Assembly (NCBI RefSeq): GCF_002924445.1
Contig: NZ_PIGG01000026.1
Location: forward strand, 62,001-126,000
Source: Minwuia thermotolerans
GTDB lineage: Bacteria; Pseudomonadota; Alphaproteobacteria; Minwuiales; Minwuiaceae
Reading direction: 5' to 3'
DNA length: 64,000 nucleotides
A program made the position numbers and the translations under genes. Of the stretch, positions 17,199 to 19,075 are shown piece after piece. Under the pieces are notes generated by a model, which saw only the letters and a program-made list of their open reading frames with translations, was not told where the DNA came from and did no database searches. Each line of letters opens with the position of its first letter. The stretch's first letter is position 1.

Positions 17199-17241
17199 CG
17201 GGTGGATTTTCCCCCCTCTGTGTACACCCCCATGACCACGT

Positions 17242-17285
17242 ACGATCACTAAACGATCACTGATGATACGATCACACATGATCAC
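17242..17285 (+). repeat. Iteron-like ACGATCAC direct repeats
   Basis: Four copies of GATCAC, three within ACGATCAC(T/A), start at 17244, 17255, 17270 and 17280. Spacings are 11, 15 and 10 bases, near one to one and a half helical turns. Such clustered repeats can be replication iterons or regulator sites; neither is shown. Confidence 0.6.
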
Positions 17286-17359
17286 AGCGCACCTTTGCAA
17301 AAAGCCCAGTTTTCCGCGCCTGAGATCGAATGACGTATTTCAGTTCAGATATTGAATGT

Positions 17360-17373
17360 GCCATATTTATGGC
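17360..17373. promoter_or_regulatory. Palindrome GCCATA-TT-TATGGC
   Basis: A perfect 6-bp dyad with a 2-base spacer inside the AT-rich leader, about 220 bases before the unknown gene at 17596. Could be an operator; no known consensus is matched. Confidence 0.35.
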
Positions 17374-17479
17374 GCTCTGGTGTACTGAATCTGCATTTTT
17401 TGGCTGTAACTGGACAAATTGAGCGCGACAAAAATCATGGACGCCCAAGAAATTTTTCATAGATTGAAGGTGGGAGAAC

Positions 17480-17574
17480 CGGGAAGCGGCGAAGCCTAGG
17501 GTCCAAACCCAGAACTTCGCCTTCCCGTAACCAGACCATGGTTTTCCTAGGGCCAAGGGTCCAATCCTTGGCCC
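17480..17574 (+). promoter_or_regulatory. Tandem hairpins sharing the motif GGGTCCAA
   Basis: Hairpin one pairs CGGGAAG (17480-17486) with CTTCCCG (17521-17527), GCGAAG (17489-17494) with CTTCGC (17515-17520) and GGGT with ACCC (17499-17502/17507-17510). Hairpin two pairs GGGCCAAGG (17550-17558) with CCTTGGCCC (17566-17574). GGGTCCAA occurs at 17499 and again at 17557, at the apex of each. The second ends 9 bases before the AGGAGG ribosome site (17584-17589). It may control translation or bind a regulator; it could also be a terminator pair for upstream transcription. Confidence 0.5.
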
Positions 17575-17595
17575 GCCCCTTATAGGAGGCAGATT

Positions 17596-18198
17596 ATGGC
17601 AGGCTCAGGCCGCAGTCGATCTAAGATTGAACGTCGAAATCGCTTGCTTCGTGATAGCTTGTGGCCTGATGCGGAGTCGCGAATCTGGCACTATCAGAAA
17701 AGCGATGGCTGGCTGAACATACCTAGGGCAATGCCTGCAATCCTTCGAACTATGGATTCGTTGACAAAAGGGCAGCCCGTATCATCGACCTATTTTGACC
17801 TCTGGTGTAGAACCTACAACAATGGGTTTGTTACTGCGAGCAAGCCGGGTGAGATGGCCTTTTTTTCTGGCTTTGATGGCGAAAGAGCGCAAAGAACTTG
17901 GATTTCTCGTGTTCGTAAATTGCAGGAACTCGGATTCATAGATATTAAAGAGGGCCCAAGTGGTCCTGTAAGTTACATATTAATTGAGAATCCTTATACT
18001 GCTCTTAAGAAATTGAGTGATAAAGGGTTGATTCAAGCGCGAATGTGGAATGCATTGATAGCGAGAATGATTGAGATTGGAGCTGATGATTTTGAATTGT
18101 TGTCGGGCGAGAATGATGAAAAGGATGGTGGGCAAGTTGAGGCTGGTTCCGTCACAAGAGGGCGAAAGGCGAGAATAAAAAGAGAGCCAAGGCGATAA
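17596..18198 (+). CDS. Hypothetical protein, probable winged-helix domain, AT-rich (acquired)
   Basis: A 200-residue protein not recognised as any named family. N-terminal 25 residues are very basic. The middle (about 45-130) has helix-rich sequence with a pattern like a winged helix: DGERAQRTWISRVRKLQELG followed by FIDIKEGPSGPVSYILI, which looks like helix then beta wing. The C-terminus is low complexity, acidic then strongly basic (RKARIKREP). Its G+C is far below its neighbours: one 60-base line (17941-18000) has 21 G or C, against 45 in the line from 18541. Codons ATA and TTA are frequent. A good AGGAGG precedes the ATG. Replication- or partition-type DNA binding is a guess based on the adjacent repeats. 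Confidence 0.6.
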   Translation: MAGSGRSRSKIERRNRLLRDSLWPDAESRIWHYQKSDGWLNIPRAMPAILRTMDSLTKGQPVSSTYFDLWCRTYNNGFVTASKPGEMAFFSGFDGERAQRTWISRVRKLQELGFIDIKEGPSGPVSYILIENPYTALKKLSDKGLIQARMWNALIARMIEIGADDFELLSGENDEKDGGQVEAGSVTRGRKARIKREPRR

Positions 18199-18238
18199 TT
18201 TTATCCCTTTCTTTTAAGTTTTTTGGTGGAGGAAGACC

Positions 18239-19075
18239 ATGAAATTCGGCGTGATGATGTTTCCGACGGACTATTCCATCGCTCCGGCGGCGCTGGGCAG
18301 GGCGGCCGAGGAGCGGGGCTTCGAGAGCATCTGGCTGCCCGAGCATTCGCACATCCCGGCGTCGCGGAAGTCGCCCTGGCCGGGCGGGGCGGAGCTGCCG
18401 AAGATGTACTACGACGTCATGGACCCGTTCGTGGCGCTGGCGACGGTGGCGTCCGTGACCTCGAAGCTCAAACTCTGCACCGGCATCTGCCTGATCGTGC
18501 AGCGCGACGTCATCCAGCTCGCCAAGGAAGTGGCGACGCTGGACCAGCTCTCGGGCGGGCGGGTGATCCTCGGCATCGGCGCGGGCTGGAACGCCGAGGA
18601 GATGGAGGATCACGGCACGCCCTTCGACCGGCGCATGAAGGTGATGCGGGAGAAGGTCGAGGCGCTGAAGGCGATCTGGACCGAGGCGAAGGCGGAATAT
18701 CACGGCGAGTTCGTGAACTTCGACCAGATGATGGCCTGGCCCAAGCCGGTGCAGCAGCCGCATCCGCCGATCCTGGTCGGCGGCGGCTTTCCCGGCGGCG
18801 CCAAACGCGCGATCCGCTATGGCGACGGCTGGATGCCCATCGACGGGCGCGGCTGGGACATCACCGAGACGCTGTCGGAGTACCGTCAGATGGCGGCGGC
18901 GGAAGGCCGCGAGCCCGACGACCTGCCGCCCACGATCTTCGCCGCCTCCGAGGATCCCGACCGGATCCGGACCTATCGCGACGTCGGCGTGGAACGCCTC
19001 GTGTTCGGCCTGCCGCCGGAGAAGGAAGACACCATCCTGCCGAAGCTGGACGAACTCGCGAAGCTGATGGACTGA
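18239..19075 (+). CDS. LLM-class flavin/F420-dependent oxidoreductase
   Basis: A 278-residue luciferase-like TIM barrel. Seen are the N-terminal KFGVMMFPTDY strand, the SIWLPEHSHIP and the GGRVILGIGAGWNAEE motif near the flavin/F420 site, and PHPPILVGGG. The pattern resembles the TIGR03619-type F420 family; F420 use cannot be proven, and FMN is possible. GGAGGA precedes the ATG. G+C returns to the genome level here, so it marks the right edge of the AT-rich island. Substrate unknown. Related enzymes are encoded at 35112-36065 and 46662-47699. Confidence 0.85.
   Translation: MKFGVMMFPTDYSIAPAALGRAAEERGFESIWLPEHSHIPASRKSPWPGGAELPKMYYDVMDPFVALATVASVTSKLKLCTGICLIVQRDVIQLAKEVATLDQLSGGRVILGIGAGWNAEEMEDHGTPFDRRMKVMREKVEALKAIWTEAKAEYHGEFVNFDQMMAWPKPVQQPHPPILVGGGFPGGAKRAIRYGDGWMPIDGRGWDITETLSEYRQMAAAEGREPDDLPPTIFAASEDPDRIRTYRDVGVERLVFGLPPEKEDTILPKLDELAKLMD

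Follow-up and report, generated by a model that had tools for sequence, protein, structure and literature searches.

Hairpins resembling the tRNA-Trp anticodon arm in the leader of a plasmid-borne gene family with a copy in an AT-rich island of Minwuia thermotolerans

How did a single AT-rich gene come to stand between parE and an LLM-type gene in Minwuia thermotolerans, and what might the structured leader in front of it do? We analysed a window of 64,000 nucleotides (contig NZ_PIGG01000026.1, positions 62,001 to 126,000 of the forward strand), and all coordinates refer to this window unless they carry another locus name.

An AT-rich island between parE and the LLM-type gene

G+C is 0.67–0.70 in parE and in the LLM-type gene and falls to 0.43–0.49 across 17250–18250. 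The only plausible gene of this stretch is an open reading frame of 200 amino acids (17596–18198, plus strand), which has a G+C of 0.46 and a GC3 of 0.42, whereas GC3 is 0.91–0.92 in both neighbours. It is preceded by the sequence of a ribosome-binding site, GGAGG (17585–17589, plus strand). The G+C profile and GC3 thus agree with the preliminary description, which had seen in this place a sharp drop in G+C and a one-gene AT-rich island.

We compared the junction between parE and the LLM-type gene among related genomes. In one genome of the same genus (G006), the stop codon of parE and the ATG of the LLM-type gene are separated by 157 bp that do not contain the island; this genome shares with the window 96% DNA identity in parE and 97% identity in the LLM protein. 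Relative to this empty site, the left edge of the island lies directly past the parE stop codon (17199) and its right edge at about 18222, just 5' of the ribosome-binding site of the LLM-type gene. Judged by the alignment with G006 and by the G+C profile, the acquired island (17199–18222, no strand assigned) replaces a native spacer of about 137 bp. The remaining genomes of the genus do not have the flanking genes side by side but on separate contigs or far apart. Searches of six further genomes from the genus, and of two from the family, did not detect the island protein. At the island itself, we observed neither an integrase or transposase nor a target-site duplication. The LLM-type gene downstream (18239–19075) is one of a large set of paralogues in this genome, with 34 matches in G000.

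From these sequence comparisons, we conclude that the island is recently acquired and that it is a copy of a plasmid-borne gene family. The same island is hence not a constant feature of this junction, and the earlier suggestion of a lone regulator gained by transfer is borne out by its absence from the relatives within the genus, by the empty site in G006 and by relatives that are overwhelmingly located on plasmids.

A plasmid-borne family and its genomic company

The relatives of the island protein that we detected with tblastn are found on 164 plasmid records and in one P2-like Burkholderia phage, and chromosomal copies are rare (3 of 385 alphaproteobacterial genomes). An IMG/VR contig (L006) encodes the closest relative, with 78% identity in the best segment. 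When two other proteins of the family were used to scan viral contigs, no matches were obtained. Another lone chromosomal copy follows a uvrC-like gene in a metagenome-assembled genome of the Rhodobacteraceae (L005, 3567–6528) and has four UCCA hairpins in front of it.

Searches of Pfam, PHROG, NCBIfam, PADLOC and PDB gave no significant sequence match for the 200-residue protein, and the profile searches thus did not place it in a housekeeping family. An AF2 model that was built from only five sequences (mean pLDDT 70.9) has a winged-helix-like core at residues ~45–132. The structural matches of this model are generic winged-helix domains (best Foldseek E-value 0.035; highest VIA Z 5.0). The best matches are domains of the kind found in MarR-, TrmB- and CRP-like regulators, whereas the curated families of such regulators give no significant sequence match, and matches this weak mean only a common fold. 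Sequence, relatives and model together indicate that the open reading frame encodes a probable winged-helix protein of an uncharacterised family.

On small enterobacterial plasmids, the family gene usually opens a pair of genes whose second member varies. The second gene encodes a PBECR2 nuclease fold in L019, which is a larger plasmid (E 4e-16), and proteins that are weakly YjaZ-like or unclassified in others. Viewed side by side, L011–L014 and L016–L019 (enterobacterial plasmids, mostly small and ColE1-type) keep the first gene constant, while its partners are exchangeable and possibly toxic. Elsewhere, AbiJ is encoded 20 nt downstream of the family gene (L010), AbiEi is a neighbour (L006), the second gene encodes an NYN protein that matches a candidate defence family (L026), and a SIR2–short pAgo pair of the SPARSA type is found 105 nt downstream in Thalassobaculum litoreum (L004, 3606–7480). 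Judged by these neighbourhoods, the family gene is often located beside toxin-like or abortive-infection genes. On four plasmids (L019, L025, L027 and L094), a gene for a zincin-like metallopeptidase, which we take to be of the ArdC-like antirestriction type, lies a few kb from the family member, with a MobQ relaxase on the other side in two of them.

The preliminary description had also considered the island as a remnant or minimal form of a plasmid- or satellite-like element. A minimal replicon or satellite remnant would fit an AT-rich stretch with a single basic gene, repeats before this gene and kin on small plasmids. However, the sampled carrier plasmids have other replication functions, which are of the Rop/ColRNAI type on the small enterobacterial plasmids and consist of a separate replication initiator A on Labrenzia p1BIR, and on large plasmids and in the P2-like phage the family gene is clearly cargo. 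Because several carrier plasmids replicate by other functions, we regard the family gene as cargo and the replicon reading as very improbable.

UCCA hairpins in the leader

The leader of the island gene (17440–17600) folds far better than its shuffled versions (z −4.39; 0 of 200 as good). It contains a proximal hairpin, GGGCCAAGG-GUCCAAU-CCUUGGCCC (17550–17574, plus strand; loop 17559–17565), which is located 37 nt 5' of the start codon, and a distal hairpin (17481–17526, plus strand) that has a 7-nt loop GUCCAAA (17501–17507) and one A.C mismatch in the inner stem. Further upstream, we found a direct repeat, ACGATCACTGATGAT / ACGATCACACATGAT (17253–17282, no strand assigned), with 87% identity and a 15-nt period, and a palindrome, GTGCCATATTTATGGCGC (17358–17375, no strand assigned). 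Of the repeats and hairpins that had been described as gathered in the leader, the two hairpins, this repeat and the palindrome thus stand, whereas most of the other short repeats in the island look like chance matches.

The hairpins recur across part of the family, with the same loop in the leaders of alphaproteobacterial members. In a protein tree, the members with such hairpins all fall within one clade (96/93), here called clade A. The 5' leaders of 15 of its 16 intact members contain UCCA-type hairpins, usually 2–5 each, with a loop of the form N-U-C-C-A-N-N. Clade A further includes a truncated copy (L023) and the member with the NYN second gene (L026), which has no such leader and represents one loss of the hairpins within the clade. 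Clades B and C have no leader of this kind, and the members of clade B, with relatives in Sinorhizobium, Rhizobium, Neorhizobium and Paracoccus, are devoid of the element even in the same host groups as clade A. This distribution shows that the clade A gene is inherited together with its structured leader.

To count hairpins, we picked stable hairpins within 250 nt of the start codon regardless of their loop sequence. Among 46 such hairpins in the 15 clade-A leaders, 26 have UCCA in the loop, compared to 0 of 29 hairpins in 18 leaders outside the clade-A set, a contrast that is partly circular, since observed hairpins were the reason for grouping the 15 leaders. The comparison with shuffles, the covariation and the model searches are free of this circularity. 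When clade-A leaders were shuffled 200 times with their dinucleotides preserved, the mean number of UCCA hairpins was 0.43 and the maximum was 3. We also aligned 33 hairpins on their loops and observed that U, C, C and A at loop positions 2–5 (33–36) are invariant over 27 different stems, although the search pattern itself demanded UCCA, so that the unbiased figure is the 26 of 46 given above. The remaining loop positions are less strict (G32 in 26 hairpins, A37 in 25 and A38 in 28), and the 31–39 pair, mismatched in about a third of the hairpins, is G-C in 20 and a C.C mismatch in nine. The leaders of L093 (at ~−82 and ~−168 from the start) and L029 contain extra hairpins near the UCCA ones, with loops such as AUACAAGC and AUGCAAGC.

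The proximal UCCA hairpin is located 36–49 nt 5' of the start codon in 14 of the 15 clade-A leaders; in the remaining one (L005), it is found at 66 nt, with a non-UCCA hairpin between it and the start. Its stem is supported by substitutions on both sides in seven of nine pairs (22 such cells compared to 6.2 in shuffles), and its covariation of 0.502 is well above that of shuffles and slides (0.170; 0 of 500).

A covariance model built on the 15 proximal hairpins recovers distal hairpins outside its training set (L007, L027, L093, L094 and L005). Over 350 kb of loci, its matches beyond these leaders are limited to the reverse strand of one of them, and when three carrier genomes were searched in full, nothing but the leader matched below an E-value of 0.4. 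For the window, the proximal hairpin scores 34.7 bits (model R1) and is the sole match below this E-value in the 4.9-Mb genome. Among the 385 alphaproteobacterial genomes, E-values below 0.001 occur only in the three that have the protein; weaker matches in G244 and G158 are at chance level for this number of genomes. When IMG/VR was scanned at the DNA level for two copies of the core GGUCCAMWCC, 58 contigs were returned, among which there were no family members and no convincing hairpins, and the best of these (L092) looks coding.

We found no known RNA element that accounts for the hairpins. Searches with Rfam 15, including T-boxes, riboswitches and small RNAs, gave only sub-threshold matches, and on the sense strand none of these covered the leader hairpins; asX6 on the minus strand, for instance, reaches 22.6 bits compared to a gathering score of 50. 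A T-box was rejected as the loop presents an anticodon rather than a codon and as Rfam gave no match. CsrA/RsmE-type sites need an A two places before GGA. Hairpins of this type on the minus strand were rejected because the UGGA there has no A in this position and because the distance to the gene is fixed on the plus strand. ARAGORN detected no tRNA and no complete cloverleaf in the loci.

What could read the hairpins

A 7-nt loop with U33 and with CCA at positions 34–36 is the layout of the anticodon loop of tRNA-Trp. A general resemblance to a tRNA is, on its own, weak evidence, since 7-nt loops with U in second place are not rare and almost any triplet is some anticodon. The most specific likeness comes from the fourth hairpin of L005, CCGGUCUCCAAAACCGG, which is identical in 17 of 17 positions to the tRNA-Trp anticodon arm of the genome studied here and of the genome of L003; calculated post hoc from the letter frequencies of the other hairpins, the probability that at least one of the 33 hairpins would match like this is about 1e-4. 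On average, a hairpin agrees with the arm at 11.2 of 17 positions, so that most cannot be called close copies, and tRNA-Trp has C32, whereas 26 of the 33 hairpins have G32.

In Escherichia coli, the threonyl-tRNA synthetase binds hairpins in the leader of its own thrS mRNA by way of a region that resembles a tRNA, and thereby keeps the 30S subunit from binding (PMC3858243, PMC6542539). The leaders described here share with the thrS operator the anticodon-like loops near the Shine-Dalgarno sequence, the presence of more than one hairpin and the less structured stretches between them. They differ in that the loop contains CCA (Trp) rather than a Thr anticodon and that there are up to five hairpins rather than two. 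Moreover, the thrS operator controls the gene of its own synthetase, whereas the leader here precedes a mobile winged-helix gene, and binding by a synthetase is proposed by analogy. As the downstream gene is no synthetase gene, we describe the leader as working like the thrS operator and not as a member of that class.

By this analogy and from the sequence patterns, our preferred reading is that the leader is a thrS-like cis-acting translational operator on a mobile regulator gene, to which we assign a probability of roughly 0.45. The start-proximal hairpin and at least one further upstream hairpin would resemble the tRNA-Trp anticodon arm (U33, CCA and usually A37 and A38), and a protein that recognises this arm would bind two or more hairpins and thereby block or gate the entry of the ribosome at the downstream Shine-Dalgarno sequence. 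The simplest candidate for the binder is the host tryptophanyl-tRNA synthetase (TrpRS), or else another factor that binds tRNA-Trp; we put forward this identity only tentatively. With TrpRS as the binder, translation of the gene would report how much free TrpRS there is relative to tRNA-Trp, for instance when tRNA-Trp has been damaged. No such hairpins are present upstream of trpS in the host genome; if TrpRS is involved, the element was therefore not borrowed from its own gene.

The encoded protein is probably a DNA-binding autoregulator. The palindrome in the window is a candidate operator for it, and the closest relative (L006) has an AT-core palindrome, CGGCATATATATGTCG, at the corresponding position. 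Upstream palindromes, mostly with an AT core, also occur in the other clades, each with a sequence of its own (TGCGCGATATCGCGCA in clade B and GTAATATATATTAC in clade C); such sites are found at ~−170 in L030 and L032 and at ~−165 in L014, L015, L018 and L019. Their clade specificity suggests that the protein also binds DNA. Where toxin or defence genes lie next to its own gene, the protein may control them as well; in this genome, it stands alone.

The encoded protein might instead bind its own UCCA hairpins and repress its own translation, in which case the likeness to tRNA-Trp would be incidental or tRNA-Trp would be a second target. We consider this possible but doubtful, and about as likely as binding by TrpRS or another tRNA-Trp-binding factor. 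The hairpins track the protein clade rather than the host, and they are restricted to one gene in every searched genome, as expected for a private autoregulatory site; in addition, several clade-A proteins have basic tails. However, a cis element that is inherited with its gene gives the same pattern whatever the binder, winged helices bind DNA more often than RNA, the palindromes point to autoregulation at the DNA level, and self-binding offers no explanation for the hairpin of L005 that copies the tRNA-Trp arm exactly.

A third explanation assigns the leader RNA a role in trans, as a decoy or antitoxin, for instance as a sponge for an anticodon nuclease specific to tRNA-Trp or as a type III-like antitoxin for the encoded protein. 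A plasmid- or phage-borne gene that follows repeated RNA structures, in a defence context, is likewise a feature of type III toxin-antitoxin systems (ToxIN, CptIN and TenpIN). Many relatives of the island gene are found in a defence or toxin context, the 2–5 hairpins that share one loop resemble repeated binding sites, and one relative is followed by a protein with the PBECR2 nuclease fold, whose name refers to a similarity to colicin E5/D and other RNases. However, PBECR2 and most other second genes belong to clades without hairpins, and the fixed distance of the proximal hairpin to the start codon points to action in cis. The hairpins also differ from type III antitoxins in that they are not exact tandem repeats or copies of one unit, with stems that vary within a leader, and that no terminator separates them from the gene; furthermore, type III systems encode a ToxN-like endoRNase, whereas the protein here is a predicted winged helix. 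We thus regard a role in trans as unlikely.

Lastly, the hairpins might merely set the stability or folding of the mRNA, with UCCA kept for structural reasons or for RNA–RNA (kissing) contacts. GC-rich stems in AT-rich leaders would stabilise transcripts, and loops of the same sequence could pair with UGGA targets. However, four invariant loop letters in very diverged leaders exceed what stability needs, and we know of no conserved UGGA partner of the UCCA loops; we consider this explanation quite improbable.

Returning to the preferred reading of a cis-acting operator, a broader version of it concerns the mobile family as a whole. The array of putative tRNA-Trp arm mimics in its mRNA may, through translation or as a decoy in trans, monitor the tRNA-Trp and TrpRS of the host and couple the toxin or defence cargo of the plasmid to damage or depletion of that tRNA, a proposal that we make with considerable reserve. 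In the open-licence literature, we found no description of a Trp anticodon-mimic leader of a mobile gene. Even if the encoded protein is the binder, the leaders contain a conserved RNA element that has no Rfam family, and they belong to a plasmid gene family that has no curated profile. Well over 100 sequenced plasmids carry a member of this family, among them small ones of E. coli and Klebsiella, on which it is the first gene of two-gene modules whose partners vary and are partly toxin-like. If TrpRS or another tRNA-Trp-binding factor reads the hairpins, they would constitute an anticodon-mimic operator outside a synthetase gene and on mobile DNA, and plasmids would thereby gain a direct way to sense the state of one host tRNA.
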